A DNA stretch of 64,000 nucleotides from Branchinecta lynchi. Its lineage: Eukaryota > Arthropoda > Branchiopoda > Anostraca > Branchinectidae. The translations under genes were made by a program, and so were the position numbers. Each line of letters starts with the position of its first letter. Positions within the stretch are counted from its first letter, which is position 1. Under the pieces are notes generated by a model that saw nothing but the letters and a program-made list of their open reading frames with translations, had not been told where the DNA came from and ran no database searches. The stretch is taken from the NCBI GenBank assembly GCA_023053575.1, contig JAKZAP010000014.1:13542938-13606937 (forward strand), written 5' to 3'. Below are positions 8,861 to 64,000 of the stretch, piece after piece.

Positions 8861-9935
8861 GTAAGTAGGCCTGAGCTGTCTTTCCTTTTGCTGCATTCGC
8901 CGCCCTATCCCCGCCTCATATTGCATATGGAGACATGGAAATTTTTACAGTTAAAATTCGGAAACAGATTACGGCCAAATAGCTAATCATCTGAGAAAAC
9001 CAAGTTCAGATATGGATTCAGCATATGTGTTTACCCCTCTAAGTCATATCTCTTTTGACGAAAACTTCCTGCCACTTCTGCCTATTTCCCGGTTTCGGCC
9101 GAACTCCGAAACTACTTGTCCGGGGAAAAAAGAAAGCTAAAAAACGAACTCATGGTATCTTCTTTCCCCATTAAGGAACATATAATCAACTTCACATAAA
9201 AATTTAACTTATAACAAATATTCCGACTCCAGCCGGATTCCGGTCGGACTATATGTCCGGGTAGAAAATGATTGTCACACACGGTTTCAGCATCTCTTCT
9301 TACCCCTAAATCGGATATCTAATCAGCTACAAATAAAACTTTAACTTCTAACAATTTTCCGGTTTTGGCCGGATTCCGTGCGAACTAGATTTCCGGGTAC
9401 AAAATGGTTTTTACATGAGTGTTCAGCATGTCTTCTTGCCCTAAATCGAACATCTAATCTACTCCAAATAAAACTTTTAATTTTAACAAACTTTCCGGTT
9501 TTGGTCAGATTCCGGACGAACTACTTGTCCGATGACAAAATGATTTTAACCATCGCGTTCAGCATGTCTTCTTACCCCATAATCGACTATCATATTAGCT
9601 GTTTCAAAATATTTTGTTTGGCCCTTAATTTGAACCCCCACCCCTAAATGTAGGGCTACAAAGCCCATCTACGAACTCGACTGGTCCGATGACCCAACGA
9701 ATCCTCATACCAAGTTTCATCAGAATATCTCATTCCCTTCGAGAGTTATCGTGCTTACAGACGGACGGACGGACAGACGGACAACTTTTACGATGTCATA
9801 GGTATCCCTCCACTTACGTTTTGGGATCCCAAAAGACATTAAGCGGACAGGACTGGGACTAGGCTAAATCGAAAGCGGCTTTAGTACATCAACCTCACTG
9901 CTCTCGAGCCATTTAACAGTACTTATCATTTGCAG
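8861..9935 (+). other. Gene 1 intron containing a family A repeat
   Basis: The intron is about 1.1 kb, with a GTAAGT donor and TTTGCAG acceptor. Most of it is family A repeat copy A1 (8940-9843). Confidence 0.7.
8940..9843 (+). repeat. Family A dispersed repeat, copy A1
   Basis: The copy contains several units of the type TTTTCCGG..TTGGCCGGATTCCG, a C/T-rich spacer with TCTTCTTACCCC and AATCAACTTCAAATAA. It ends with a GACGGACGGACAGACGG run, TGTCATAGGTATCCCTCCAC and TTTTGGGATCCCAAAAG. Copies with the same order lie at 24725-25945 (inverted), 28817-29812, 31500-32110, 32565-33202 (inverted), 34166-35098, 36453-37862 and 51554-51830. Confidence 0.8.
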
Positions 9936-13389: not shown

Positions 13390-13529
13390 GGACTCGCCTA
13401 GACCCGTTTTCTTTACCATGCACTTTGACCCAGCCTCCTACTGTTTTTCTCACGAAAGTTGTCATCAGAGAACCCGGCTCGGAAACCTCATCTAATATTT
13501 AATAAGTAGTGAACTGAAAGTCAAAAATG

Positions 13530-13602
13530 CTCCTCAGCGGGGATTTGAACCCAGGACTCTCTGCTTACAAGGAAGGCGCTCTACCAACTGAGCTACCGAA
13601 GG
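13530..13602 (-). tRNA. tRNA-Thr (TGT)-like gene or tRNA-derived element
   Basis: A 73-nt minus-strand cloverleaf can be drawn. The acceptor CCTTCGG pairs with CTGAGGA (one mismatch at the end). The D arm GCTC/GAGC has an AGTTGGTA loop (A box GGTAGCTCAGTTGG). The anticodon loop CTTGTAA reads TGT, the variable loop has five bases, and the T arm has loop TTCAAAT (B box GGTTCAAATCC). Five Ts follow 2 nt after the 3' end, as for an RNA polymerase III terminator. Two of the five anticodon-stem pairs (27:43 and 30:40) and one T-stem pair are broken. It may therefore be a decaying tRNA copy or the head of a SINE rather than a working tRNA. Confidence 0.6.
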
Positions 13603-14012: not shown

Positions 14013-14208
14013 TACTCATCTAATATATTTGAAAACCTGTTGGAAAAATCTTCGAAAAAATGTGGTAAGCCCACTTTTTTGCTTTTGGAACAAGCCAGAA
14101 TAACACCTCAAGAATTTCGATCGTACTGACAACAGGACAGTCATAAACGTGGTAATAAGACGACGTTGAACCAAATGATCTTTTAAACGACGGATGGTGG
14201 CAGAACTA

Positions 14209-14363
14209 CACTGTAAAAGTATCTCCGCGTAAGGATTAAAGTTAGCTGCAGTATTTGCTAGTCAGATTATTGTTATCTCTATTTCGTATCAGTCTTGTCT
14301 CAGTAAAGATAAGAATAATCCGAGTGGAAAACACTGCAGTTAACTTTAATCCTTACTCAGATC
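14209..14363. mobile_element. Mariner-type palindromic MITE, copy 2
   Basis: It starts CACTGTAAAAGTATCTCCGC after TA and shares GCTGCAGTATTTGCTA and its inverted partner with copy 1. The right terminus is lost or diverged after TTTAATCCTTACTC. Confidence 0.65.
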
Positions 14364-15025: not shown

Positions 15026-15183
15026 CACTGTAAAAAAAAATCTTGCAGTTTTTGCTACTGGGATTAATCTTATCTTTACTGAGATAAGATTACCCCTAAT
15101 TCGGATTAATTTTATCCAAATAAAGGTAAGATTAATCCCAGTAGCAAATACTGCATCCTTATTCGGAGAAACTTTTTACAGTG
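15026..15183. mobile_element. Mariner-type palindromic MITE, copy 3
   Basis: It starts CACTGTAAAAA and ends CTTTTTACAGTG, with TA immediately outside both ends (15024-15025 and 15184-15185). The inner arms GGGATTAATCTTATC and GATTAATCCCAG are inverted copies. At 158 bp it is the cleanest member of the family in this window. Confidence 0.85.
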
Positions 15184-15274
15184 TAGGTGGCGTTTTCGCG
15201 AAGCCCAGTTTGACCGTATATTGTCGGACACATTTCCAATAGCCGCCTTTATTTACTATGCCCGAGAAAAAATT

Positions 15275-24724: not shown

Positions 24725-25945
24725 TTTTTGGGATCCAGAAAAGGTAAGTGGAGGGATACCTATGACATCGCAAAAGTTGTCCGTCCGTCCGTCTGTAAGC
24801 ACGATAACTCTCGAAGAGAATGAGATATTTTGATGAAACTTGGTATGAGGATTGTTTGGGTTAAGATTAAGGTCGAGTTCGTAGATGGGCTCTGTAGCCT
24901 TATATTTGGGGGTGGGGGAGGGGGTTCAATTTATGGCACAAACAAAATATTATTAAACAGCTAATGTGATAGTCGATTATGGGGTAAGAAGACATGCTGA
25001 GCACGATGGTGACAATCATTTTCTTGCCGGACAAGTAGTTCGTCCGGAATCTGGCAAAAACCGGAAAGTTTGTTAAAAGTAAAAGTTTCATTTGAAGTAG
25101 ATTAAATGTTTGATCTAGGGGTAAGAAGACATGCTGAGCACGATGGTGAAAAACAATTTTCTCGCTGGACGAGTAGTTCGTCCGGAATCCGGCAAAAACC
25201 GGAAAGTTGGTTAAAAGTAAAAGTTTCATTTGAAGTTGATTAAATGTTTGATTTAGGGGTAAGACGACATGCTGAGCATGATGGTGAAAATCATTTTGTC
25301 ACCGGACAAGCAGTTCGTCCGAAATCCGGCCAAAACCGGAAAGTTGGTTAAAAGTAACAGTTTCATTTGAAGTTGATTGAATATTTGATTTATGGGTAAG
25401 AAGACATGCTGAACCCGATGGTGAAAACCATTTTCTCGCCGGACAACTAGTTCGCCTGTAATCCGGCCAAAACCGGAAAATATGTTAAAAGTAAAAGCTT
25501 TATCTGAAGTTGATTAGATGATGTATTTAGGGGTAAGAAGAGACGCTGAGTCTGTATATAATGATAATTTTTTACCCGGACATATAATTAGTCCGGAATC
25601 CGGTTGTACCCGCATTTTTTTAATTCAACATTTTATTTAAAGTTGATTAGATTTCTTTATAGGGATAAGGAGATACGCCGGCTTCGTTTCTGAATTTTTC
25701 TTTTTTTGCTGGACTAGTAGTTTGCTCGGAATTCGGGCGAAACCGCAAATTTGGCAGTAGTAAAGCAGGAAGTTTCGGTCAATATCGTCAAAATAGATAT
25801 GGCTTATAGAGGTATAGACAGGTAGATAGAATATCTGAACTCGGTTTTATCTGATGATTAGCCTGGCGAAGACAAGACTGAATTGTCTGGATCAAATCTT
25901 AGATGTTTGGGATCCCATCGACACCTTTGGTCTTGTTCCAATTCC
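24725..25945 (-). repeat. Family A dispersed repeat, copy A2, inverted
   Basis: It begins TTTTTGGGATCCAGAAAAGG, has TGACATCGCAAAAGTTGTCC and the CCGTCCGTCCGTC run, then about six units of the CCGGACAAGTAGTTCGTCC type. It ends at TTTGGGATCCCATCGACACC and TTTGGTCTTGTTCC. Confidence 0.8.
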
Positions 25946-28261: not shown

Positions 28262-29880
28262 ATATTTACTTTCGTATTTTCTTTTGTTGAAACAAACTGC
28301 ATAATAATGAAGGGAAGCTTATGCCAAGTACCCGCGGGATATTGTCACCAAAGCTAGAGTTGTCTAAACAGCCAGTAGAAGATAAGAGTAGAAACACGAT
28401 TTATAAACTTGATAGCAGTAAAGACGGTCGCAATTCCCGGTCGAAACGATTATAAGCTTATAAAATTTAATGGGCTTAGGTGTAGTTGTTTAAAGAAAAC
28501 TGGTCAAAATGATTTATCAAAACTAAAATGAAAAATTAATTGTCAACTACTAGGGTGGAAGTACAGCAAATTAAATATTGGTTTCTTTTGTTGAAACAAA
28601 ATGCTTAAACAAAGAAGGTTGCAAGCTTATGCCAAGTTAGCTGGGGATGTTGTCACCAAAGCTAGAGTTTTCGAACCAGACAGTAGCAGGTATGAATAGA
28701 AACACGATTTATAAACTTGATAGCAACGAAGACGGTTGAAATTAATATAAATTCATAAAATTGAATGGGCTTATTATGTAGTTGTTTAAAGAAGTTGATC
28801 AAAAAATGATTTATAACAAGACCAAAGGTGTCGATGGGATCCCAACAATCTAATATCCAGATCCAGTCTTCGCCAGGCTAATCAACAGAGAAAATCAAGT
28901 TCAGATATACCTCGATAAGCCATATCTATTTTGACGGTACTGACCGAGACTTCCTGCTTTACTTCTGGAAAGTTTCCGGTTTCGCCCGATTTCCGAGCGA
29001 ACTACTAGTCTAGCAAAAAAAGAAAATTCAGAAACAAATCCAGCGTATCTCCTTATCCCTATAGAGAACATCTAATCAACTTTGAATAAAAGTTTGATAC
29101 AAAACAAAATTCCGGTTACAACCAAATTCCGGACTAATTATATGTCCGGGTAAAAAATGATTGTCATATACCGACTCAGCCTTTCTTCTTACCCCTTAAT
29201 CTATCATCTAATCGAACTTCTGCTTTTAGCAAATTTTCCGGTTTTGCCAGGATTCCGGGCGAACTAGTTGTCCGCCGAGAAAATGATTTTCACTATCGTG
29301 TTCGGCATGTCTTTTTATCCCTCAATCGAACACTTAATCAACTTCAAATTACTTTCCGGTTGTACTTGTCCGGCGAGAAAATTGTTTTCACTATCATGTT
29401 CAGCATGTCTTCTTACCCCTAAATCGACCATTTAATCAACTTCAAATAAAACTTTTACTTTTAACCAATTTGTCTGGTTTTTGCCGGATTCCGGACGAAC
29501 TACTTGTTCGGCAAGAAAATGGTTTTCACTATGGTGCTCAGCATGCCTTCTTACTCTATAATCGACTATCACATTAGTTGTTTAAAAATATTTTGTTGGT
29601 CCCTTAATTTGAATCACGTCTCCCACCCCTAAATGTCAAGCTACATAGCCCATCTACGAACTTGACCTTACCATTGACCAAATGAATCCTCACACCAAGT
29701 TTCATCAAAATATCTCATTCCCTTCGAGAGTTATCGTTCTCACAGACAGACGGACAGAAGTACATTTTTGCGATGTCATAGGTATCCCTCCACTTACGAT
29801 CTCAAGAACTAGGATGAGAAAATTAATTTTCAACTATTAGGGCGAAAGTAAAAGTGTGTTAAAAGTACATTAAAATTAAC
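28262..29880. repeat. Roughly 300 bp direct repeat, second unit split by family A
   Basis: TTTCTTTTGTTGAAACAAA starts units at about 28278 and 28582, both continuing with AAGCTTATGCCAAGT and CACGATTTATAAACTTGATA. The end of the second unit (AAAATTAATTTTCAACTATT) appears only at 29820, after the family A copy at 28817-29812. Confidence 0.65.
28817..29812 (+). repeat. Family A dispersed repeat, copy A3
   Basis: It starts ACAAGACCAAAGGTGTCGAT with GGGATCCCAACAATC and ends TATCCCTCCACTTACGATCT. It interrupts an older direct repeat, which shows that family A elements insert as a unit rather than arise in place. Confidence 0.8.
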
Positions 29881-32560: not shown

Positions 32561-32564
32561 CTGG

Positions 32565-33202
32565 GTGGGGGAGGGGTTTCAAATTAAGGGGCGAACAAAA
32601 GGTTTTTTAATAGCTAATGAGATAGTCGATTTAGGAGTAAATGCTGAGCACGAATATAGAAATCATTTTCCCGCCGGACAAGCAGTTCGACCGGAATCCG
32701 GGCAAAACCGGAAAGTTTGTTAAAAGTAAAAGTTGTACTTGAAGTTGCTTAGATGTACGATTCTGGAGTAAGAAAGACATGCTGAAAATTCATATGAAAT
32801 TCATTTTCTCGTCGCAGAAGTAGTTCGCCCGGAATCCAGCCAGAACTGGAAAATTTGTTAAAAGTAAAAAATGTTTATCTGAAGTGATTAGATATTCGGT
32901 TTCGGGGTAAGAAGAGATGCTGAATTCGTATAAGACAATCATTTTCTATCCAAACATATGGTTCGCCCGGAATCCGGTGGAAACCGATTAATTTCTTAAA
33001 ATTTGAAGTTTTATCTGAAGTTGATTGGAGGTTCGATATAGAGGTAAGTAGATCTGCTGAATTAGTTTTTCGCTTTGTTCTGTTTCTAAATTTTAATAAT
33101 AAAAACGTTCAAAGAGTCTGACTAAGACCAGATATTTACAATACCAATTGTCTGGATCAAATTTAGATGTTTGGGATCCCATCGAAACTTTTGGTCTTGT
33201 TA
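32565..33202 (-). repeat. Family A dispersed repeat, copy A5, inverted
   Basis: It has the GGTGGGGGAGGGGTTTCAAA start, CCGGACAAGCAGTTCGACC units, and the end TTTGGGATCCCATCGAAACT with TTTTGGTCTTGTTAG. Confidence 0.75.
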
Positions 33203-34165
33203 GTAATTTTTACTGTGCCTCTATACGTTCTTCGTCCGCCACAGTACTGTCCGTTCAATTCCGTAAATCGTCCCTGCATGGTATATTTAGACACTGCGTA
33301 AAATCGGAGCGTATTTTCCGCACGTATTTGGGCTTGTAAAGATTCTGGCAATACGGATGTGTTTATATACAAATATGACCGATTTCTCAAATACGCACAA
33401 ATTGCTAGAAATCTTTTTAAGCCGAAATACGTGCGTAAAAAATACTCTCGGATTTCAAATCACGCTCGAATTTACGCAGTGTGCAAAATACACTTTCAGA
33501 CTGTTTATAGAGTCTCTAACTTCGTGTCCATGACTGAAACGGCCACAGTTAGCGTCACAAAAGAGTAGTGAGCAAAACCGAAAGCCGATTCGGGCTGAGG
33601 AAAATTGCAGTACTTGAGCATGTAAAGCCCTTTAGAGAATGGTCATCGAAATCACTACTGCAGATACTATTAAAATCTCCGAACACAATTAGTAAAATAC
33701 TTTAGCTGCAAGCAGCAAAGCTGTGAAGGAATCGTTAGACGTAGCAACTGGCACATCGTGAGTTCCAGATTACTTTCGGTTATGTTGTGACGAACAGTTG
33801 TAGCCTCATTCCAAGCTTTGGAAAAACAGGATGCCTTTAATAAATGCTAAAATTTACACAGCTGTTCCTACAGTGATGTAATTCAAACGTTTTGAGGTTG
33901 GCTTCGTTAGGGAGTACGGTAGTTTGTGTGTGGCGGGGAATGGAATATTTTAGAAGCTATGATATTTCTGTAAGTAGTGTTTGACATCTGAGAATTCACA
34001 GTCCGATAAAAGTCCCAGATAAAACCAGCTGATGCAGTTTAGAATGGACATAGTGGTAAAGGCTGTTAAACATTAGTCATAGGGCAGTAATAAAAGAGCC
34101 CTTTTAACACTTTACAGTAGTTTCACTGATCATTCTATTTTTCTGGCATTTCTTCAGTTTTAAGG

Positions 34166-35098
34166 AGACAAGACCTAAGGTTTCGATGGGATCCCAACAG
34201 TCTAATATTTGATCCAGACAATTGGGTCTTGTCTTCGCCAGATCCAGTCTTTGCCACGCTAATCATCTGAGAAAACCAAGTTCAGATATACCTCGATAAG
34301 CCATATCTATTTTGACGGTACTGACCGAAACTTCCTGCTTTACTTCTGCAAAATTTCCGGTTTCGGCCGAATTCCGACCGAACTACTTGTCCAGCAAAAA
34401 AGAACAGTTCAGATACGAATTCAACGTATCTCCTTATCCCTATAAAGATCATCTAATCAAGTTCAAATAAAACTTTAACTTATAAAAAAAATTCCGGTTT
34501 CAACCAGTTTCTGGAAGAATTATATGTACGGGTAAAAACTTGATTTTCGTATACAGACTCAGCGTCTTTTCTTAGCCCTAAATCTGTCATCTAATAAACA
34601 TCAAATAAAACTTTCGCTTTTAACAAATTTTCCGGTTTGGCCGGATTCCGGATGAGCTAGTTGAAAATGGGTTTTCATCATCGTGGTCAGCATGTCTTCT
34701 TACCCCATAACTGAATACCTAATCAACTTCAAAGAAAACTTTTAATTTTAACCAACTTTCCAGTTTTTGCCAGATTCCAGACGAATTACTTGTCCGGCGA
34801 GAAATTGGTTTTCATCATCGTGTTCAGCATGTCTTCTTACCCCATAATCAACTATGACATTAGCAATTTAAAAATATTTTGTTTGCCCCTTAATTTGAAC
34901 CCCCCCACCCCTAAATATAGGGCTACAAAGCCCATCTACGAACTTGACCTTAGCCTTGACCCAAAGAATCCTCACACCAAATTTCACCAAGATATCTCAT
35001 TCCCTCCGAGAGTTATCGTGCTGACAGACGGACGGACAGACGGACAACTTTTGAGAGGTCATAGGTATCCCTCCACATACGTTTTGGGATCCCAAAAA
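34166..35098 (+). repeat. Family A dispersed repeat, copy A6
   Basis: It starts GACAAGACCTAAGGTTTCGA with TGGGATCCCAACAG. It holds five to six CCGGATTCCGG units and ends in GACGGACGGACAGACGG, TCCCTCCACATACG and TTTTGGGATCCCAAAAAG. It is complete at both ends. Confidence 0.8.
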
Positions 35099-36452: not shown

Positions 36453-37862
36453 AAGACCAAAGGTTTCGATGGGATCCCAAAAATTCAATATCTGATCCAG
36501 ACAACTGGGTCTTGTCTTAGCCAGATCCAGTCTTCGCCAGACTCCTTGAACATTTTTACAATTAAAATTCAGAAACAGATTAAGGCCAAATAGCTAATCA
36601 CCTGAGAAAACCAAGTTCAGATTTGGATTCAGCATGTGTGTTTACCCCTATAAGTCATATCTGTTTTGACGAAAACTTCCTGCCACTTCTGCCAATTTCC
36701 CGGTTCCGCCCGAACTCCAGAACTACTTGTCCGGCGAAAAAAGAAAGCTCAAAGACGAAATCAGGGTATCTTCTTTCCCCAGTAATGAACATCTAATCAA
36801 CTTCAAATAGAAATTTAGCTTATAACAAATTTTCCGATTCCAGCCGGATTCCGGTCGAACTATATGTCCGGGTAAAATACGATTGTCACACAGGGACTCA
36901 GCATCTCTTCTTACCCCTAAATCGCTTATAATCAACTAGAAATAAAACTTTGACTTCCAACAGTTTTCCGGTTTTGGCCGGATTCCTGACGAACTACATG
37001 TCCGGATAGAAACTTGTTTCCACATAAGTGTTCAGCATGTCTTCTTGCCCTAAATCGAACATCCAATCAACTCCAAATTAAACTTTTAATTTTGACAAAC
37101 TTTCCGGTTTGGGCCGGATTCCGGTCAAAATACTTGTCCGTCGAGAAAATAGTTTTCACCATCGTCTTCAGCATGTCTCCCTACCTCTAAATCGAACATT
37201 TAATCAACTTCAAATAAAACTTTTACTTTCAACTAACTGTCCGGTTTGGGCCGGATTCCGTGCGAAATACTTGTCCATCGAGAAAATAGTTTTCTTCAGC
37301 ATGTCTTCCTACCCCTAAATCGAACATCTAATCAATTTCAAATAAAACTTTTACTTTCAACAAACTTTCCGGTTTGGGCCGGATTCCGGGCGAAATACTT
37401 GTCCGTCGAGAAAATAATTTTCACCATCGTCTTCAGCATGTCTTCCTACCCCTAAATCGAACATCTAATCAACTTCAAATAAAACTTTTACTTTCAACAA
37501 ACTTTCCGGTTTTGGCCGGATTCCGGGCGAACTACTTGTCCGATGACAAAATGGTTTTCACCATCGTGTTCAGCATGTCTTCTTACCCAATAATCGACTA
37601 TCACATTAGCTGTTTATTTTGTTTGTCCCTTAATTTCAATCCCCTCCCCCACCCCTAAATGTAGAGCTACAAAGCCCATCTACGAACTTGACTGGTCCGA
37701 CGACCCAACGAACCTTCTCACCAAGTTTCATCAAAATATCTCATTCCCTTCGAGAGTTATCGTGCTTACAGACGGACGGACAGACGGACGGACGGACGGA
37801 CAGACGGACAACTTTTGCGATGTCATAGGTATCCCTCCACTTACGTTTTGGGATCCCAAAAA
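36453..37862 (+). repeat. Family A dispersed repeat, copy A7, longest
   Basis: It runs from ACCAAAGGTTTCGATGGGAT to CACTTACGTTTTGGGATCCC. In its centre, units beginning near 37109, 37246 and 37374 (137 and 128 bp apart) are nearly identical. Because the unit length is not a multiple of three, the open frames through them shift register and are not genes. Confidence 0.85.
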
Positions 37863-52561: not shown

Positions 52562-52931
52562 CCCTAGGTTCACACAGACGTTCATACTGAGGCGATATCG
52601 GCCATTGACGAGGTTTTCGCGGCCAAACTGTTGCTTCGTCAGGCGATTTTCGATGCTGGGATAATTCAACTTTAATCGGGTGACAGTTCGATTTTATGCA
52701 CGCAACAGCAACATGGACGACCCTTTTGAAGATTCACTTTTAGAAAAATCTATTATTTCTTATTTGATTATTTAATTATTTAAGGGTTATTTTTATTTAT
52801 TTTATTTCTTTTCGCATTAAATTCAATTGCCGACGAAAATTCAGTGTGAACATCCAAGCGATAAAAATCTTCTGTAGCTTCGATTGAAAAATCTCGTTCA
52901 TCGCCACGATTTGCTCTGTGTGAACCTAGGG
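52562..52931. mobile_element. PIF/Harbinger-type MITE with TTA target duplication
   Basis: CCCTAGGTTCACACAGA and TCTGTGTGAACCTAGGG are perfect terminal inverts. TTA lies just outside both ends (52559-52561 and 52932-52934). The 370 bp interior is AT-rich with no transposase. Confidence 0.85.
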
Positions 52932-53115
52932 TTAATGTGCCGGAGTTCCGACCGGTGTTGCGACGGAGAGTGTCCTTCGGCAACCCGCCTAGTCTACATA
53001 ACTTCGGCTGCCGCGGAGAGCAGCATTTGGTAATCACATTGCTAAGATGGCTCTGTTGTCAAGTTGTGCTCGGAACCGACGATTGCTCATGTTTTCATAC
53101 ATTGTTTGCTTCAAG

Positions 53116-53271
53116 GTTTATTGCCACCACTCAGTTCCAGCCAACGGATGCCCGCAGAGCTTTTCCGTGCTTCGATGAGCCAAATCTGAAAGCCAAGTTT
53201 TCTGTAACGCTGGGAAGGAAGAAAACAATGACGTCGATCTCGAACATGCCCATCAGCCAAACCGTACCACA
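53116..53271 (+). CDS. Gene 2 exon 4: M1 N-terminal domain (TQFQPTDARRAFPCFDEP)
   Basis: It encodes FIATTQFQPTDARRAFPCFD and EPNLKAKFSVTLGRKKTMTS. T.FEPTDARRAFPCFDEP is a signature of the family. The Asp/Glu-rich turn helps form the substrate amino-terminus pocket with later exons. The acceptor is CTTCAAG at 53115 (a weak pyrimidine tract), the donor GTAAGA at 53272. Entry completes Lys and exit is phase 2. Confidence 0.92.
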
Positions 53272-55401
53272 GTAAGATTACCCTTATTTAACTTCCTGAC
53301 CAAAGCTTCTGGAAGCGACTTGTTTTCGCCCGACCTTCACTGCCGTTTGGATTTTTACGACAAACTGACTACTTTCAAACATGTCCGCTAGCCGTTATAG
53401 AGATCGCAAAAAGACCTAAGTGGGCCTGTTCTTGAAGTGCCATGCTCGTTGACTCTCAAAATAGTATATACCCAACAATTAAACTTACAACATGATTTTG
53501 TCGATTATTTTTCTCGTCTTTGGTTTCCTTTGATATATACTCCACCCTCGGCTCCATCATACACATTTTGTTCAAAGACGGAAAATTAACTTACACATTT
53601 GGTAAGTGCTGCAAAGAAAAAAAACTTCTCGTGGCAGTTTTACCATATTGCAATAGGCTAATAACACTGAAGAATTAGGAAGGGTAGATGTCAGCGGCGT
53701 CACGGCTATAAAGCATAGACAGCCTTCAACTATGATGATGGCCGCGTGTTGGGTGAATGTTGAGATCCGTGGGACGGGCGATGAAGATGTAGACTGCCAC
53801 CATACGTGCTTACTACAGTAAGGAAACCATAGAAAAGGGATAATGGTATATCGGTTCAGCCGCAATTCACCAAGCAGCCCGGACATTGCTTCACACACCC
53901 TAGCGGAGCTGGAATTCGCCCGGGCCTACTAAAGCGAGATTAACAAGTTTCCCTTATTGGTGAATGCTACTTTGCATCGAAGCCTGACCTTGGTTTAACA
54001 CCACCGGCAACAGAAGCTAGGGGACAAAGACCGAGTGGCGCATGATGCCGGTAAAGGAATCGCCATGACGAGATAGCCTAGATGGAAAAGTAGGTGGTGT
54101 GTGATGGGGAGGAATTAACAAGGAGGATTACTGCAGAGCAATAACACTCTTGTGGCGAATCCTGCCTTTAGCGGGATCGACTAAAACCAGGAAGGGAAGG
54201 GAACGTGAGAAAAGCAGGAAGGGCATACTAAAACGAGGAAGGGCATCCTAAAACCAGGAAGGCTGTCGCCAGAATTCGCAGCAGTGTTCCCTTCCTCTAT
54301 TTAGTATATTTGAGGGGTCGACAACTTTTCAAATTAAAAGTTCACCATCCCTTCCTCGTTTTAGTATCCTGACACGAGTAGTCATTAAGTTCAGTGAGGG
54401 GTCGGCAACTATAAAGATTGTAATTTACCTTTTCATTTCTCGTTCTGACGGTAGGCGACTAACCAGGAAGGGCATACTAAAACGAGGACGGGCATCCTAA
54501 AACCAGGAACGCTGTCACCAGATTTCTCAGTAGCGTTCCCTTCCTCTATTTAGTATTATTTGAGGGGTCGGCAACTTTTCAAATTCAAAAGTTCACCATC
54601 CCTTCCTCGTTTTAGTATCCTGACATGTCGTGGCATTCAGTGAGGGGTTGGCAACTACAAAATTGTAATTCACCTTTTCATTTCTCGTTCTGACGGTAGG
54701 CGACTAACCAGGAAGGGCATACTAAAACGAGGAAGGGATGGTGAACTTTGTATTTGAAAAGTTGTCGACCCTCAAATAATACTAAATAGAGGAAGGGAAC
54801 AGTGCTGCGAATTCTTGCAAAAGCATTCCTGGTTTTAGGATGCCCTTCCTCGTTTTAGCATACCCTTCCTGGTTTTAGTATGCCTTCCTGCTTTTCTCGC
54901 GTTCCCTTCCCTTCCTGGTTTTAGTAGATCACGCCTTTGGCTGGGGTGGGGGGCATTTCAGCCTTTCTGCTCCGTTGACAGCAATCCTGTCGGAGAACAT
55001 ACATTCCTTTCTGGGCCATGGATGTTTCCATCCATGGTTTGCAGTACTGAAGTCTCCTCGTATCGCTGTACGCAGATATTTGCTCCACAGTAGCACCTTG
55101 AACAGGATAAGAATGACTTACAACACAAATGCATAGTAGAAATTCACTTTCTTCCGGCTATGCAACGTGCACTAGCAACGCACTCGACAGCTGCAGTTTT
55201 CGTTTAGGATAGGTTTGGTACACTGACACCAAGCTGACACTAAGGTCCTATTAGAGGTATCTAGAAGCTGATTGACAGTTTGCGCCGGGCATTGCCTAAG
55301 GACAGTAGCTCCTATTATTAGCTATTCTTGATTAAACTCATTGCTTCAAAAGTTACGACTGTGAAAGCTTACGAAAGATTAAAGAAATATTTGTGTTTCA
55401 G
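53272..55401 (+). other. Gene 2 intron 4
   Basis: Apart from the foldback element at 54176-54930 I recognise nothing in this intron. The stretches 53280-54175 and 54931-55400 contain no assignable motif. Confidence 0.65.
54176..54930. mobile_element. Foldback element with internal 245 bp tandem copies
   Basis: GACTAAAACCAGGAAGGG at the left and CCCTTCCTGGTTTTAGTAGA at the right are long inverted arms. The boxes AAAACGAGGAAGGGCAT and AAAACCAGGAAGG recur on both strands. Two tandem copies of a segment with TTTGAGGGGTCG and GTTCTGACGGTAGGCGACTA sit between (about 54300 and 54545). Confidence 0.75.
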
Positions 55402-55514
55402 TGCTGATAAGTCAGACTATGAATGGGACATATATGAGGAGTCAGTGACCATGTCAACTTATTTGGTAGCCTTCGTCATTTCTGACTTCACAAAGAACGA
55501 CGCTAAAGATGCAG
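55402..55514 (+). CDS. Gene 2 exon 5: M1 domain (MSTYLVAFVISDF)
   Basis: It encodes ADKSDYEWDIYEESVTMSTY and LVAFVISDFTKNDAKDA. The W..F..T..MSTYL.AF...DF block of M1 aminopeptidases precedes the catalytic domain. The acceptor is TTGTGTTTCAG at 55401, the donor GTTAGT at 55515. Entry completes CAT (His); exit is phase 1. Confidence 0.92.
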
Positions 55515-55585
55515 GTTAGTGCAGTCTTCCATGCAACCCGACATGTACCCATTAAGCTGACTTTCATCCTTTGAACTGTATTCAT

Positions 55586-55883
55586 CGTGTTCCATCCTAC
55601 TAACCGTAGTTACTACGCACGACGTCACGAATTCTGGCTTTTTGCCGTCAAGGCTGGAACGACTTTTCTATTTTGCAGCAGAATATCATGCCACGGGAGA
55701 ATCTGACCAATCACGTTACAGAGATCCGCAGTTACTACGCTAACTACGCTCCCGAGCGTGGTAAGCAATAGTTACTGTTAGTTACTATTTCGAGAAGGTT
55801 GTAGCGGTCTGCTTAGTAACTTTTGGTGAGGCTAGAACGGAAATAGTAACTAATAGTTATTATTTGTAGGAGGGTTGAACACG
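55586..55883. mobile_element. Nonautonomous element with CGTGTTCCATCCTACT ends
   Basis: The right end AGGAGGGTTGAACACG is the inverse of the left. It is an inverted relative of 44544-44752. It is rich in GTAGTTACTA and GTTACTATTT. Confidence 0.65.
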
Positions 55884-56005
55884 CTCAGTGTGACATTACA
55901 ATAAGTAATGCTTGTAGAAAGCATGGAATTCATATTTCACTTGTAAGGGTCCATAATTTGTGTGTTAACTTCCTTGTTGCCTTCCACTAATTTGATACTC
56001 TAGTT

Positions 56006-56256
56006 GGTTAAAATACTAACGGGAACGAAAGAAACATAACAGATACCATCCCAAAGTGTTATCTGTTGAAACCGCGCATCCTCCTGTTCTCGTCATGTAA
56101 CTTCTGACAGTGTAGTATTTTTACATATTGAAGGTGTTGTTGGAGATCTAGGCACGAAATAGTATAAATTAATTGGTCATAACACTTTATTTCTAAGTGA
56201 AAAGGTGTTATTCTTGAAAGTGTTATGCGCAATCTGTTATAAAACTTCTGACAGTG
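56006..56256 (-). mobile_element. Half copy of the CACTGTCAGAAG foldback
   Basis: Read on the minus strand it follows 50833-51090 closely, including the nested second terminus and GTTTCTTTCGTTCCCGTTAG. The other arm is missing. Confidence 0.7.
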
Positions 56257-56404
56257 CAGTTTCCCCCCCACCCCTCCCGCTACCCGTTTGTAACGACATT
56301 ACCTCAACTCTTCGGCTGGTCGCCAGGATAAAGAAGTTCATCGCAAGCTACGGACAAAGAAACCGAAAGCACTAATACACTGTAACAAAAAATCTTACAG
56401 TAAA

Positions 56405-56500
56405 GTAAGTAAGTAAGTAATTTATTTATAACCCGCCGTTTTCAGAAAGCGGAGTAAATGAAGAAAGTAAATAAAACACATAAACATAAACATACACAGT
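56405..56500 (-). mobile_element. Short LINE tail, (TTAC)n end
   Basis: GTAAGTAAGTAAGTAATTTA starts a minus-strand tail inside the left arm of the MITE, bounded by ACAGTA on both sides, a possible target duplication. It is noncoding. Confidence 0.5.
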
Positions 56501-56820
56501 ATTTGCTACTGGGATTAATCTTGTCTCTAATGAGATAAAACTATCTCTAACTTGGGCTAGTCTTCAGTTCAGTTCAGTTCAGTTTATTTTACGACCCAAA
56601 TACATTTAACTATGTTGCCAGTACCCGCCCCAAGAAAGGTACAAAAAAGCACTTGCGGTTGGGCGGGTACATAAAACTCATATCCTAACTAATAATTAAC
56701 TAGATACAAAATATACCAGAAAAAGCACTAAAACAAGAAATAATAACCAATCTCTCATCAACTCATTTATTAATAATAATGAGAAAAAAGAAAAATAATA
56801 AAAAAAACAAGAAGAAAAAA

Positions 56821-58287
56821 CTATGAACCTTGGCCTAACAAATACTTTTTCAATTTATTTTTAAATAGCCCCAGGTGCTCAGCCGCCCGAATGCTCTCCG
56901 GAACAGAGTTCCACACATTAGGCCCTGAAAATCTAGTAGGGAAGCCGGCCCTGGTTCCACTTCTGTGCGGGACAACGAAGTCACTAGCATGACGTGTTTC
57001 ATAATGATGCAAAGATCTATTGTCACTAAAATAATCACGAAAAACCTCTGGACTTGCATCACTCCAACATTGATAAGCAAAAATTCCGACTTGGTACTCC
57101 CGCAGCTGTCCTACATTAAGCACTTGCAATTTTTTGAAACAAGCTGCAGTGTTGTGTGCACCTTCGACATATCCACCAATAAGACGCATCGCTTTATTTT
57201 GAAGAATCTGAACACGTTTAAAATTCACATAAAAATTGCTTGCCCATAACATGCAGCCATACGAAATATATGGGTGAATCAAAGCGTGGTATAAAAGCAA
57301 TAAAATTCTCGGAGGTAAAAAATTTTTGAAACGTCGAATTGCTCCCAGACCACGGGCAACCTTTGTTGCAACAACATCGCTGTGGCGTTTCCACGAAAGA
57401 TTACAATCAATGTAAAAACCTAAATAACGGATTTCCTGAACCTGAACTACAGGCTTATTATCAAACAGAATTCTACCATTAATATCACTGGGCTTACCAA
57501 CTCTAGAATATAAAATAAAATTAGTCTTAGCAACGTTTACTGATAACAAACTCAATCTAGTAAATACGGAGAAATTTCTCAGGACACCATTCACTTTCAA
57601 CACAAGACTATCCAAACAACGACTAGAAAACGTGACTGCAGTGTCATCAGCGAACGACGTTAAGCAACAATCCGGAAGATAAAACCTCATGCTATCTACG
57701 TAAACCAGATAAAGAAGTGGACCAAGGACCGACCCCTGCGGCACACCACACGACACTCGATAAGGGGAAGAAAAAACATCATCAATCATCACTTTAATAG
57801 ACCTCCCGCACAAATAACTTTCAAACCACTTCAGACTCACTCCTTTAATACCCAAGCATTCTAGCCTTTGCAATAAAATTCTAAAATCTACCGTGTCAAA
57901 TGCTTTCCTAAAATCAAAAAATACTGTTAGGGGGATCTCACCTTTTTCTAAACAATTATTTACAAAATCAACAAGATGAATAGCAGCATGACTAGTAGAG
58001 TGACCTTTTCTAAACCCGAATTGGGTGTCACTGAGTAAGCTGTGTTTCGTGAGATGGTCATATAGACGACGATGAATCACTTTTTCCAAAATTTTTGAAA
58101 GTAGAGGCAGTATCGAGATTGGTCTCCAATTACCGGCATCTGACCTGGCACCCCCTTTATAAAGTGGGATAACTTTAGCTTGCTTCAGCGCTTCTGGAAA
58201 GGTCCCTGTTTCCAGAGACAGGTTAATAATATGAAGGATACATGGTAGTATATACATCATCACAGCTTTAAAAGTTCTAAGATTCAC
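56821..58287 (-). CDS. LINE ORF2, reverse transcriptase part
   Basis: The stretch of 488 codons begins at a downstream Met; the real frame continues upstream through SNSAGIDGVNLRTF, so it is the second half of one ORF2. RT motifs include KVIPLYKGG, NWRPISILPLLSKILEKV, QFGFRKGHST, FFDFRKAFDTV (catalytic Asp at residue 125), GVPQGSVLGPLL (181-192) and FADD (212-215, two catalytic Asp). The thumb region has EIRYLGFYID. The C-terminus has ETRHASDFVVPHRSG and GPNVWNSVPESIRAAEH, common in CR1/jockey-like LINEs. There is no RNase H domain. The protein would copy LINE RNA at the nicked target. All catalytic residues seen are intact. Confidence 0.93.
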   Translation of the reverse strand: MNLRTFKAVMMYILPCILHIINLSLETGTFPEALKQAKVIPLYKGGARSDAGNWRPISILPLLSKILEKVIHRRLYDHLTKHSLLSDTQFGFRKGHSTSHAAIHLVDFVNNCLEKGEIPLTVFFDFRKAFDTVDFRILLQRLECLGIKGVSLKWFESYLCGRSIKVMIDDVFSSPYRVSCGVPQGSVLGPLLYLVYVDSMRFYLPDCCLTSFADDTAVTFSSRCLDSLVLKVNGVLRNFSVFTRLSLLSVNVAKTNFILYSRVGKPSDINGRILFDNKPVVQVQEIRYLGFYIDCNLSWKRHSDVVATKVARGLGAIRRFKNFLPPRILLLLYHALIHPYISYGCMLWASNFYVNFKRVQILQNKAMRLIGGYVEGAHNTAACFKKLQVLNVGQLREYQVGIFAYQCWSDASPEVFRDYFSDNRSLHHYETRHASDFVVPHRSGTRAGFPTRFSGPNVWNSVPESIRAAEHLGLFKNKLKKYLLGQGS

Positions 58288-59836
58288 GCCATCTATCCCA
58301 GCAGAATTCGATTTTATGTTTTTTCACTATCTTAACCACTTCATCATTTGTACACTTTTCAAATTGGAACTCAACACTGTCACCACGAGAGTCCTCGAAT
58401 TCCTCACTGAGAACATTTACCCTGTCACACCTTACACTCTCTTGAACCGACAAGCCAATTTGAGAATAAAACTGGCCAAAATGATTCGCGACTACATTTT
58501 TATCACTCACAGAACTTCCGTTTATATCAATGCATGGCGACTGGCTACTTTTCTGATTTCCCATGAATTCATTAATAACTTGCCATGTGGCTCTTGTATC
58601 TCCCTTATTATCAGAAAACTTTTCTTCGAAATACTTCTTCTTTGCTTGCCTTCTCATACTGTTCACCTTATTTCTCACTCGCTTGAAATCTGCAAAATCT
58701 CCGTCATCCTGACTATTCAGATATTGCTCATATAACATATTTCTGTTGTTTATCGTGTCTATTATTTCTTCCGTAATCCACGGCTTGCGGGGATCCTCCT
58801 TCTTTTGTTTTGCCAGTCGCAAGGGACATGTTTTCTCATAAATCGGTTGAAAAATGGACATGAACTGGTCATAAGCTAGAGAAGAATCATCGGAAATCTC
58901 AAGGACTGAGTCCCACTTAATACAACTCAACTCCACGGCAAAGTTATTGAGATTTTGCTTTTTCAGATCACGTGTCAGTATTTTCTTTGACGGGATACGT
59001 CCATTTTTAAGACACGTCACATGAGCAATTACCGGGAGATGGTCCGAGCCAGGATATATAATCACATCAGAACAGCTTTGACTCAAATAACTACGTCCCA
59101 CGAAAATGTTATCAATTAGGGTCGCTGAATGACTAGAAATTCGGGTGGGTACACAAGTTAAAGGGTAAAGATCATTCGAAACCATATAATTAAAAAAATC
59201 CAAATTATCACCTGAAAGTTCTAAAAGATTAAAATTAAAATCCCCCATACAAAAAAAATCCATTCTTGTAGACGAAACCAACCTCATCAACTCATCAAAA
59301 CCTGTGACAAACTCATCCAATCGAGCACTGGGCGGCTTATACACCATACTAATTAAAACTTTTTTTCTTTCAATTTCCAATTCTAAACAAAAACTTTCAA
59401 ACTTACCTTCTATCCAAACACCCAAATCCTCCCTCACCATATACCTCATATTCTTCTTAATCAAAAATCCCAAGCCTCCTCGGTTCATAGCTGATCGGTT
59501 TCTTACCTCAAAATCGTATCCTGGAAAATAATAAGCCGAGAGAGATTGGTCAGCACTCAAAAAAGTTTCACAAATACCCATAATATCAAATTTTGAAGAA
59601 GATTTCTCAATTAACTGCAGAACATCTAAATATCCTGTAGTAAGGTGGCAATTCCACGAGCAAAGACAGAGCGACATGTCTGAACTAACTTGCGACGGCA
59701 ATATATAGGAACTTTCGCGAAGAGGCTTTGAACCAATAATAGGCAAGTCATCACGTCCAATTTGTGCCTCCAAATGATCTTCAATACGGAGCGGATTACA
59801 CATAAATCTACTCAATGAAGAAAAATTACTCAACAT
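58277..59836 (-). CDS. LINE ORF2, APE-type endonuclease part
   Basis: 519 codons. The endonuclease core runs from about residue 54 to 275 with the expected residues: SWN (N62), CET (E90), Y..P (YKPP, 166-169), GDFN (198-201), TLIDNIF (239-245) and GSDHLPV (263-269, H266). This enzyme nicks target DNA to prime reverse transcription. A linker with DYDQ-less basic helices (KFKRVRNKVNSMRRQAKKKY-type) follows to residue 519. The frame ends in a stop just where KKHK should continue as KSNSAGIDGVN; skipping one base near 58313 joins it to the RT part, so a single indel probably broke ORF2. Confidence 0.92.
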   Translation of the reverse strand: MLSNFSSLSRFMCNPLRIEDHLEAQIGRDDLPIIGSKPLRESSYILPSQVSSDMSLCLCSWNCHLTTGYLDVLQLIEKSSSKFDIMGICETFLSADQSLSAYYFPGYDFEVRNRSAMNRGGLGFLIKKNMRYMVREDLGVWIEGKFESFCLELEIERKKVLISMVYKPPSARLDEFVTGFDELMRLVSSTRMDFFCMGDFNFNLLELSGDNLDFFNYMVSNDLYPLTCVPTRISSHSATLIDNIFVGRSYLSQSCSDVIIYPGSDHLPVIAHVTCLKNGRIPSKKILTRDLKKQNLNNFAVELSCIKWDSVLEISDDSSLAYDQFMSIFQPIYEKTCPLRLAKQKKEDPRKPWITEEIIDTINNRNMLYEQYLNSQDDGDFADFKRVRNKVNSMRRQAKKKYFEEKFSDNKGDTRATWQVINEFMGNQKSSQSPCIDINGSSVSDKNVVANHFGQFYSQIGLSVQESVRCDRVNVLSEEFEDSRGDSVEFQFEKCTNDEVVKIVKKHKIEFCWDRWRES

Positions 59837-59998
59837 AAATAAAAAAGTAAACTAACTTCCTTTCCCGCGAAAAAAACAAAAATTCCGCGAAAAGGCTATA
59901 AACTAATAATACGCAAATCATCACAAATGCTGAAGCAACTGAATAATACAAAGAAATAGTAATACAAATAAACACAAATAATCAACTTTTACTAAAAG

Positions 59999-61060
59999 CT
60001 AGAGGGTGTCAACAAGTGAGTGGATGCGTGTTGGGTGAATATCACCTTGCTCACGTTTGTAAACACGGCCACGATCAGTCCATACGTTCCTTACACCATA
60101 CCTGTCTCTCGCACCATCGAGAATCACTTTTCTCATTTTCGTGAGATATTCAGCGACGAATACACCCGATTTTGCCAGCTTTGATTTCGCTTTGAAAACA
60201 GTATACGCCATATCTTTCGTCGCGAATTTAACGAGAACTGGCGCAACAGGCGTAGGTGTCTGGATATTCCCCGTGGCGTTCGGAAGACTAAAACGGTACA
60301 CGGACAACACCTGTTCTTTCTGAACATGTACACCCATTCTCTTTGCTATTTCCAGAACAGCAGTACCCAGGTCAACCCCGGGGTCCTGTTTCACTCCAAA
60401 AAGCACCAAAGAATCAAGCAAACGCTCCTGATCGTAATCGTCCAACTTTTCCTCAATAGTAGCGACCCGAAGCTCTATTGACTGAATCTGGCTGTTCAGA
60501 GATGAAAACATTTTTTCAACTTTCTCAAACTTTCCGTTGTACTCTAGCGTGATCGAATCATAAATTTCCGAAACAATCAGTTCAGGGTTTAGAGTGGCTT
60601 GTTGTGATGAGCCTCCTGCTCCTGCCACGGAAGCAATTTTTTCCTGAACTTTTTTCTCGATTTCTTTAACCAGGCCAGCCTTAAGTTTTACTACTTCATC
60701 TTGTGCCAAAGTAAGCTGGTTTCGAAGTGCAGACGTTTTGCCCGAAGCAGTTGGATCAGCACCAGGGCCTTTTGTAATTTGCTTTTTCAAAAACTGACAA
60801 TAAAGATCAGGAGAAGATTCACACTCGCGGAAAGCATGATTTACGCCCTTAGCCGTACTTTTCGAAGCTTCCGAATAATTGTCATCATACGAGAGAAGAT
60901 TCGCTTCCACCACAGTCTGAAAGTCATGGGATCCGTAGCAAAATACAACGAATTTCAGTGTAGACTTTTCTTGGTTCGTAACGCTGACAATCCGTACTGG
61001 CCAAAGGGGATATCCCTTGAACTGAGCTACCGCCAAATCTCCCTTCTGAAACTGTACCAT
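59999..61060 (-). CDS. LINE ORF1 with N-terminal PWWP domain
   Basis: From the Met at 61060 (MVQFQKGD) the protein has 353 residues; the frame is open 21 codons further but that part looks like 5' UTR. Residues 4 to about 95 form a PWWP domain: GDLAVAQFKGYPLWPVRI, then FVVFCYGSHDF and a helix KGVNHAFRE. The cage positions known from LEDGF/HDGF-type domains are all aromatic here (F14, W20, Y42). A coiled coil follows (about 110-215, LRNQLTLAQDEVVKLKAGL and FEKVEKMFSSLNSQIQSIEL). The last third is the LINE ORF1 core: RRM-like SLVLFGVKQD and VLVKFATKDMAYTVFKAKSK, then EYLTKMRKVILDGARDRYG and VWTDRGRVYKRE. The domain would read methylated histone H3 lysine, and the rest would bind and multimerise on LINE RNA. 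PWWP identity is seen in the sequence; its role is inferred. Confidence 0.9.
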   Translation of the reverse strand: MVQFQKGDLAVAQFKGYPLWPVRIVSVTNQEKSTLKFVVFCYGSHDFQTVVEANLLSYDDNYSEASKSTAKGVNHAFRECESSPDLYCQFLKKQITKGPGADPTASGKTSALRNQLTLAQDEVVKLKAGLVKEIEKKVQEKIASVAGAGGSSQQATLNPELIVSEIYDSITLEYNGKFEKVEKMFSSLNSQIQSIELRVATIEEKLDDYDQERLLDSLVLFGVKQDPGVDLGTAVLEIAKRMGVHVQKEQVLSVYRFSLPNATGNIQTPTPVAPVLVKFATKDMAYTVFKAKSKLAKSGVFVAEYLTKMRKVILDGARDRYGVRNVWTDRGRVYKREQGDIHPTRIHSLVDTL

Positions 61061-61780
61061 GATGAAAATAATGATCCAGTAAATCGAAAGTTTACTTATC
61101 TTTAGTGGACAGGGCCACGTCATGCGGAGGCAGACACCCTTATGGATGGGGGCCCGGTGGAACGTGGGAGCCTGTCAGTTTTTTCCACCGTACTCCGACA
61201 TCCCAAATTGCTGCATTCAGATTATCCAAATCAAATTTATCCGTATTCAAATCACTGTCACTGCTATGACGTCAACCGCTAGCAATTACACAGCGCGCAG
61301 CAGATATGTTAACTCAGCCAGTGCTGAATGAAAACTGAATATATCTACTATCCCAGTAGATATAAGATTAATCCCAGAAGGAAATACTGCAGTTAACTTT
61401 AATCCTTATACGGAAAAACTTTTTACAGTGTAGCGTGCCTTAATTTAAAGGGTGGTTTTTGAACTTCCATTGGAGTGTTTGGTGAAGGTAGTTGAAAGTG
61501 GAATAGGCAATTTTTGTCAAGAAAAGGGGGACTTCGGGATCGGGTGGTAGTGGCTTGACCACAACTTTCCCGGTAATCGGCAGGGTATAAAGGTTCATGT
61601 TTATCTTCAGACGCTCTGAGTGAAGACGTTTTAGATACAGAAAATGGAAACAGCATGCAATGATTTAGAGGGTAGTGACTAAACTTTCCGTGGATCAGGA
61701 AGTGGATCTGTCGGAGAAAACCGCCGGACTTGAAGGAGTTAGGACATTCTCCTTAGAAATAATTTTGCATGTATGTGCAG

Positions 61781-61976
61781 GTGACACCAAAGTTGCCGTC
61801 TGGTCGAGACCAGGTGCCGAGGATCAGACTGACTACGCCCGAAGCATCACATCCGATATCCTTCTCTACCTCGAGGATTTCTTCCAAATCGAGTATCCCC
61901 TACCAAAGCAAGATATGATTGCGATTCCGGACTTTTCAGCTGGAGCCATGGAAAACTGGGGCCTGATTACATATAG
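61781..61976 (+). CDS. Gene 2 exon 6: M1 catalytic domain, GAMEN exon
   Basis: It encodes DTKVAVWSRPGAEDQTDYAR, LEDFFQIEYPLPKQDMIAIP and DFSAGAMENWGLITYR. GAMEN is the exopeptidase motif of M1 enzymes that holds the free amino end of the substrate, and Y.LPK.D..A.PDF.AGAMENWGL.TYR is diagnostic. The acceptor TGTATGTGCAG at 61780 is entered in phase 1 (G plus GT gives Gly), in agreement with exon 5. The donor is GTGAGA at 61977 and exit is phase 2. Confidence 0.97.
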
Positions 61977-63880
61977 GTGAGACGTGAATTCTGGCGAATC
62001 AATAGGAGTCGTAAACCTAGTCCCTAAACATTCGTTTGATTCTTTCCAGGCTAAATCAACACCCGTGCAACAGAAATCATGATTCTCAGTATTGCTTCCG
62101 TGAAGGATCAAGTTGATAATTCAGAAGTAGAAACTGGGTGGTCATAGCTCACCTTTTTCTTTTTCTTGTATCTTGTTAAATCACTTCCATATCAAAGGGA
62201 CCCTCGAATTGGCTCATTTGCTCGTAAAGTTTGAGTGCACGCGGAATTGTCTAGTATTCCGAACCCGAAGCGCTGCAACCCGGACGAGGTTATTCGCTAC
62301 CCGAAGCTCAGCCGGGCTGTGATCGGGGGTAGAGAGAAAAGGAGGGGGGGAGAAGAAAGATAACTGATATTTAGAAAAGTGTTTATAAGTTTTATGGTAA
62401 AATGAAGTGGAGAAGGTTGGGAAAATATCCATCTTGGCGCAGACCGTCCTGGTTAAACCGGGCCCGCGTTTCGTTTAAATGCGGGCTCTACCCTCCGATA
62501 CTTAACAACCAAGGACGGGTTCATGCGGTTTGGATTCGGAATATATTAGAAAGCAATCCAGACGATATAATGAAACGGTGCAGGCTTTCAGTTATACTTT
62601 GTTCCTGTCCACTTATGAACGCGGTCTGGACCCTTATATACATTTCATAGTGAAGAATAAATAACGATAAATACTTTCATCTACCATGTTAAATTTTCGA
62701 TTACGAACCGACCTGAAACCGTTGTGCCTGTCTATACATACTTAGCAGCCCTCTAGCCGTAGGAGTAGCTTAAAGTCTTTCTTGTGGTCTGGGAACTCAC
62801 GGTAGCAAATAAAGAACGTACCGATGATCTAGAACGTTTCGAATTAGACTTGTGTTGATAGAAAATATCAACTGATTTTTTACAGAGAACTGACCAACAA
62901 AAACAGGAAAAAAGTGATATTCTGGATTTTTCTTGATCGGCTAGTTATCCCTCTAAGATGATGTTTGAGGGATAGATGAGATTTCGTATATTTCAGTTGG
63001 ACTTCGGGCAAACCGTCTTCAGCGAAAACACAAACTAAATCATAAATTCCACCACAACACCACAGGGAAACACAATACTGTACCCACTTTGTGCTCCCCC
63101 AGACCTGTCAATTACTATAAATATCCTTTCCAGTAATACACGACCCACTAAACATGCAGCCAGTATTGTGAAGTTCGAATTCGTGAGGCGTTGAACAAGT
63201 AACTGAGCCATAAATCTAAGACATCTTTGCCATAAACCCCGTTAGGACAAACAGAGCAGAGACTATTACGCGGATCGCGCACGAATCCTGTTAGAAAATT
63301 AGCAGTGTCCAGGCCCTGGCTAGGCCAGACTGGCAGTTCTGGGGAAGAGTTTAGTTGAAGTGTTTGATAGTTAGTGGTGGTTTGGAGGAATCGGCCGATT
63401 TCTGGGTGAAAGCGTCTGCGCTTTCCAAGGCGGATAATTGTACAAACAATCAGTAAATTGTAAATATACACAGATCTCAGAAATGTAAATGTTCACAGAT
63501 TTGTACAGATACACTTTTAACACGCACATTTTATCTTTCGTTATTTTACTTTTATTTGAATGTCATTTATGGTCTGTTCGTTCCGCATTGTTTTCTTGTT
63601 GGTATTGTGGTGGATTTTATGATTTAGTATGTTTTTCGCTGAGGACCGTTTGCCGCAACTGCAACGGAAATATTCGAAATTTTATTTATAGGCTACTTCG
63701 CACATCATACTAGAGGGATAAAACTAGCTGATAAAAAACAACCGAAAATCTTGTTTTTCTATTGTTGTTTGCAATGAATGGTCAGCTTGGCTTCAAACCT
63801 TATAACAGAGATCTAGAACGGGTTCGACTTCAAGTATGAATTCGTTGGAAAATACACCTGACGACACATTTCTCTTACAG
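61977..63880 (+). other. Gene 2 intron 6
   Basis: It begins GTGAGA and ends CTCTTACAG. I recognise no element or exon in it. The open stretch 62402-62650 has no family motif, and AT-rich sequence dominates. Confidence 0.75.
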
Positions 63881-64000
63881 GGAGACAGCGGTGTTGTATC
63901 AGCCTGGTATTTCTTCAGCAAAAAATAAGCAGCGTGTTGCTGTTGTAATCGCCCACGAGTTAGCTCATCAATGGTTTGGTGACTTGGTCACTACTGACTG
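63881..64000 (+). CDS. Gene 2 exon 7 (cut by window end): M1 catalytic domain, HExxH exon
   Basis: It encodes [20 protein letters not shown] and [24 protein letters not shown] is the HExxH zinc-binding site with the catalytic Glu, and the second zinc Glu (about 18 residues on, in NE) should follow beyond the window. The acceptor TTCTCTTACAG at 63880 is entered in phase 2 (AG plus G gives Arg), completing TYRE. Exon 6 and 7 together show that gene 2 keeps the active-site motifs present here, so it is probably an active surface aminopeptidase. Confidence 0.97.

Follow-up and report, generated by a model that had tools for sequence, protein, structure and literature searches.

A LINE of Branchinecta lynchi with an HDGF/LEDGF-type PWWP domain at the N-terminus of its ORF1 protein

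Some LTR retrotransposons have integrases with a chromodomain, so that the element itself encodes a histone reader of the royal family that serves in choosing the target. The insertion-site choice of APE-type LINEs is largely an open question. A survey of 448 Jockey-superfamily elements reports PHD, RRM, CCHC, esterase and Transposase_22 domains in ORF1 (Metcalfe and Casane 2014, PMC4120745). According to this survey the PHD domains belong to type II ORF1 of subtype IIC, found in L2 subgroup 6 and CR1 subgroup 5. A role as epigenetic readers in general targeting has been suggested for them; the authors of the survey knew, in 2014, of no functional study of ORF1 PHD domains. The term "PWWP" does not occur in the main text of the survey, which was also the only paper that a search of an open-access full-text library for chromatin-reader ORF1 proteins brought up. 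Among the papers listed from that library, outside which most subscription papers lie, none dealt with a PWWP domain in ORF1, as judged from titles and the beginnings of abstracts. A first-pass annotation of the present DNA was aware of no described family of this kind, which holds for the open-access full-text literature searched and for that alone. A reader-type domain in LINE ORF1 is already known in the form of PHD, and it is the PWWP fold in this place that has not been reported in the open-access literature searched.

The window, by which we mean the whole stretch of 64,000 nucleotides analysed, carries ORF1, an endonuclease, a reverse transcriptase and a 3' simple-repeat tail on one strand (Table 1). 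The element is an APE-type LINE of Jockey-superfamily-like type; we take a placing with L2/CR1 to be possible, the tail and the ORF1 layout being no more than suggestive of it. The ORF1 frame runs on the minus strand from an ATG at 61060 to a stop at 60001-59999, and translation of the plus strand from 59999 onwards meets many stops. The reverse transcriptase part matches LINE-1 ORF2 in the PDB (2.2e-17). ORF2 of the window copy is broken, since the endonuclease and the reverse transcriptase lie in different frames. Copies of a palindromic MITE-like repeat are found, among the matches listed, at 1432-1606, 14206-14355, 15044-15189 and 56497-56537 with 61349-61437. Arms of such a repeat are present in both flanks of the LINE, so that one copy seems to have been its landing site, and we infer from this that the 5' end of the LINE lies at or below 61348.

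Table 1. Coordinates of the LINE and of the ORF1 domains in the window
Feature	Position	Strand	Evidence or remark
ORF1, 353 aa: PWWP, coiled coil, RRM-like core and C-terminal domain	59999..61060	-	
PWWP domain with two C-terminal helices, ORF1 residues 3-94 (Pfam core 7-80)	60779..61054	-	Pfam, PDB, Foldseek
Coiled-coil region, ORF1 residues about 105-214	60419..60748	-	long helices in predicted model
RRM-like core and C-terminal domain, ORF1 residues 215-353	60002..60418	-	strand/helix order in predicted model
5' leader, maximal extent	61061..61348	-	host repeat starts at 61348
ORF2 part one: AP-type endonuclease, stop-to-stop frame	58277..59851	-	Pfam Exo_endo_phos 1.6e-10
ORF2 part two: reverse transcriptase, other frame	56821..58323	-	Pfam RVT_1 1e-34
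3' end of the element: AATAAA, then (CTGAA)n tail	56563..56590	-	

The surroundings of the element are those of a protein-coding gene. Motifs of an M1 aminopeptidase follow one another in order on the plus strand (FPCFDEP at 53162, MSTYLVAF at 55451, GAMENWG at 61942 and HELAHQWF at 63954), and Pfam recognises Peptidase_M1_N and Peptidase_M1 on the open frames 52865-53272 and 61669-61977; no Pfam match came from the 55 kb piece. A minus-strand LINE amid plus-strand exons of this gene lies antisense in a host intron, so that the intronic position claimed for this copy is borne out by both motif order and Pfam exons. One intronic copy is no evidence of targeting. An ERAP1_C exon is present at 1668-2075 on the plus strand (E 2.7e-21), in addition to the Peptidase_M1_N/Peptidase_M1 exons within 52865-64000 on the same strand, and the window probably holds two tandem M1 aminopeptidase genes. 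Elsewhere in the window a tRNA-Thr (TGT) at 13529-13602 on the minus strand, detected by ARAGORN and also matched by the Rfam tRNA model, represents either a gene or a tRNA-derived SINE. A diverged repeat family occurs at 8938-9834, 24725-25939, 28857-29798, 32563-33066, 34164-35098 and 36548-37861, in direct and inverted copies that are pairwise about 74-88% identical among the matches listed.

Profile, sequence and fold agree that ORF1 begins with a PWWP domain, as the first-pass annotation had proposed for residues 4-95 with consensus residues that match the translation. PWWP (PF00855) is the single significant Pfam family in ORF1 (residues 7-80, E 9.6e-8), and its 32.9 bits lie above the curated Pfam cut-off of 25.6 bits. 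With phmmer against the PDB, residues 3-94 match the PWWP domains of LEDGF/PSIP1, HDGF, HRP2 and HRP3 at E 5.6e-8 to 1e-6, followed by LD23804p at 2.7e-4, while rows at E 0.28 and above are weak or chance matches; a profile of the ORF1 family has HDGF as its best PDB match (6e-9). An AlphaFold model built on the ten aligned rows described below is of middling confidence (mean pLDDT 65.8, pTM 0.31), with pLDDT of 70-75 over residues 1-60. The five strands (9-12, 20-28, 36-41, 46-51 and 55-57) and two helices (69-82 and 85-94) of this predicted model are those of the HDGF-type PWWP barrel. Its top Foldseek match in the PDB is the HRP-2 PWWP (E 1.8e-4, target TM 0.68), and all 48 Foldseek rows at E <= 0.001 are PWWP domains of HRP2, HRP3, HDGF, LEDGF/PSIP1 or Shuguo; a further fold search returned royal-family barrels in general. 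By sequence, the closest solved relatives of the domain are the HDGF/LEDGF/HRP subfamily.

The remainder of ORF1 is read from the predicted secondary structure, with the boundaries of the coiled-coil and RRM-like/C-terminal parts being our own placing. Helices at 105-150 and 159-207 fit a coiled coil, a region that is conserved among the ten aligned rows, and the order strand-helix-strand-strand-helix at 217-298 fits an RRM-like core, of which the last strand (301-303) is present in a poorer first model only. No convincing Pfam family covers this part: L1 ORF1/Transposase_22 is absent from the matches, and three further families on ORF1, at E 0.078-0.31, all fall under the cut-off. By hhalign, residues 182-299 align with the ORF1-like protein P0004, which has no PWWP, is only weakly similar to ORF1 (E 3.4e-3), is unnamed and itself lacks a significant Pfam family.

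The domain is not confined to the window copy, and neither of the two outcomes that would have spoken against the first-pass annotation, a missing profile match or a domain limited to this copy, came about. Three protein searches yielded nine related proteins with 39-83% identity to the window ORF1 (P0001 83%, P0002 48%, P0003 39%, P0005-P0010 39-44%), the clusters behind them holding 1 to 19 member sequences. These nine and the window form an alignment of ten rows from which P0004 was excluded; the N-terminus is reached in nine (the window and eight relatives), P0010 lacking it. Pfam finds PWWP in seven of the ten rows at E <= 0.01, P0010 being among the other three, and PWWP residues are carried by all eight relatives that have the N-terminus, in a sample where PWWP-bearing queries would under-represent relatives without the domain. 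The LINE context (ORF2, tail) is that of the window copy, the relatives being known as proteins. Averaged over pairs of rows, identity comes to 61.8% in the PWWP core (36 pairs), 56.6% in the RRM-like part (45 pairs), 55.8% in the coiled coil (45 pairs), 55.3% in the C-terminal domain (36 pairs), 42.5% in the PWWP helices and 36.9% in the linker (36 pairs). The higher conservation of the PWWP core that these alignments suggest is modest, and against the window alone six of the eight relatives (P0003, P0005-P0009) show 43-48% in the PWWP core and 43-49% in the RRM-like part. For nine rows, trees built from the PWWP domain and from the rest of ORF1 share the same well-supported split, which separates the window, P0001 and P0002 from the other six, and the window groups with P0001 in both; within the other six the PWWP tree lacks resolution and speaks neither for nor against the rest-of-ORF1 tree. 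Read most simply, these sequences point to a PWWP domain that was already in place when these ORF1 lineages split and has been kept since.

The pocket that would receive a methyl-lysine is altered in this domain. In LEDGF the cage is formed by M15, Y18, W21 and F44 (PMC3663649; the same residues in PMC7662849) and flanked by H48/E49 (PMC3663649), and in HDGF2 it consists of Y18, W21 and F44 (PMC3119473). PDB alignments place F14, Y17, W20 and C41 of ORF1 at the LEDGF cage positions, with H45 and D46 at the rim. The claim that all three cage positions are aromatic (F14, W20, Y42) thus has to be corrected: of the canonical aromatic walls of HDGF2, two are present as Y17 and W20, but the third wall is C41, and Y42 aligns with LEDGF F45. 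This cysteine (codon 60938-60940, minus strand), where LEDGF and HDGF2 have Phe44, is found in all nine rows with the N-terminus, as are F14, Y17, P18, W20, P21, F40, Y42, H45 and D46; F14 puts an aromatic residue at the LEDGF M15 position. Residue 15 is basic, K or R, in every one of these rows. The LEDGF T47 position is S in eight and T in one, position 13 (LEDGF K14) is K in six, Q in two including the window (Q13) and N in one, and position 36 (LEDGF K39) is K in three. Residues 1-92 of the window ORF1 have 9 K+R against 10 D+E, a net charge below that of all eight relatives having this part, in a count that misses the first 8 residues of P0001, which are absent there, and includes the N-terminal extension of P0007.

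Mutants of LEDGF indicate how such changes may be read. M15A led to a loss of enrichment on H3K36me3-rich genes, F44A abolished binding, possibly through misfolding, and W21 and F44 double as core positions (PMC3663649), so that conservation of the pocket residues may in part reflect folding. The first PWWP of human NSD1 and that of MBD5, both accepted members, also lack the full cage (PMC3119473); Cys41 therefore limits the claim to be a reader and not PWWP membership. The three aromatics could stand in a new arrangement around what is probably a modified but retained methyl-lysine pocket. With Phe44 replaced by Cys in all nine rows, reading of H3K36 methylation by this domain is plausible but unproven.

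The explanation we prefer is that this LINE family uses the HDGF/LEDGF-type PWWP of ORF1 to tether its RNP to chromatin, most likely to methyl-H3K36, a proposal for which we see about an even chance. With its coiled coil and its RRM-like core ORF1p would coat the element RNA; oligomers formed by the coiled coil would display several PWWP domains. Single domains would bind nucleosomes weakly, through basic residue 15, the F14/Y17/W20 pocket and the H45/D46 rim, and together they would bind tightly. Ahead of target-primed reverse transcription, this would hold the RNP at chromatin, most likely at methyl-H3K36 of transcribed genes. Avidity of an oligomeric ORF1p would make sense, as the LEDGF PWWP has a KD of 17 mM for an H3K36me3 peptide and also relies on DNA contacts for nucleosome binding (PMC3663649). 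One element-encoded protein might in this way do what LEDGF does for lentiviral integrase. That we are dealing with an undescribed LINE lineage with its own H3K36-type PWWP reader and cysteine-modified cage, whose multivalent RNPs dock on transcribed chromatin, is put forward tentatively.

The main rival holds that the PWWP has been kept for nucleic-acid or general nucleosome-DNA binding, as in RNA chaperoning or nuclear retention of the RNP, methyl-lysine reading having been lost. The uniform Cys41 fits this view, as do the general capacity of PWWP domains to bind DNA as well as methyl-lysine (PMC3119473) and the finding that tethering to chromatin, and not a particular ligand, was what HIV-1 integration with LEDGF required (PMC2706977). 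Among the fold matches there is also the PWWP of "Shuguo" bound to ssDNA, on which the literature search found no paper. Against it, F14, Y17, W20 and H45/D46 persist in all nine rows, although most of these share only about 40% identity with the window. Such persistence is in keeping with a retained pocket, though part of these residues belong to the core as well; we consider the rival rather doubtful, if by no means negligible.

The same uniformity can be turned differently, since Phe for M15 and Cys for F44 in all nine rows, with Ser for T47 in eight, might mark specificity for a methylated lysine other than H3K36, or for a host protein, for example in avoiding or exploiting a silencing pathway. 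The HDGF2 PWWP has been crystallised with H3K79me3 and H4K20me3 (PMC3119473), and we nevertheless regard a different ligand as unlikely. It is highly improbable that host sequence was fused or captured by chance in one copy, or that the PWWP match is false: the window copy is itself decaying, as its broken ORF2 implies, but profile, sequence and fold are concordant, and the motif residues recur throughout the N-terminus-bearing rows of a family with nine relatives.

Should tethering through the ORF1 PWWP be correct, the LINE would be a self-contained equivalent of LEDGF-guided integration. With two unlike reader folds in one and the same position of ORF1, chromatin reading would look like a strategy to which LINE ORF1 proteins have turned repeatedly. 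LEDGF supplies worked-out PWWP assays and point mutants (PMC3663649), which make the targeting question directly testable. In comparison with the PHD-bearing ORF1 proteins of subtype IIC, the present protein has the same plan of an N-terminal reader-type domain followed by what, on its predicted secondary structure, would be an L1-ORF1-like part, with endonuclease and reverse transcriptase in ORF2, whereas a PWWP beta-barrel here replaces the PHD domain. With the HDGF/LEDGF/HRP proteins it shares the five strands and two helices, the YPxWPxR and GxH(E/D) motifs and identity at LEDGF residues 18/21, but the domain sits here on a mobile-element ORF1 with an RNA-binding-like part and has Cys for F44 and Phe for M15. 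Like the chromodomain integrases of LTR retrotransposons, the element encodes its own royal-family domain; in contrast to these, it is a LINE that would use target-primed reverse transcription, and the putative reader is carried by ORF1p and not by the integrating enzyme.
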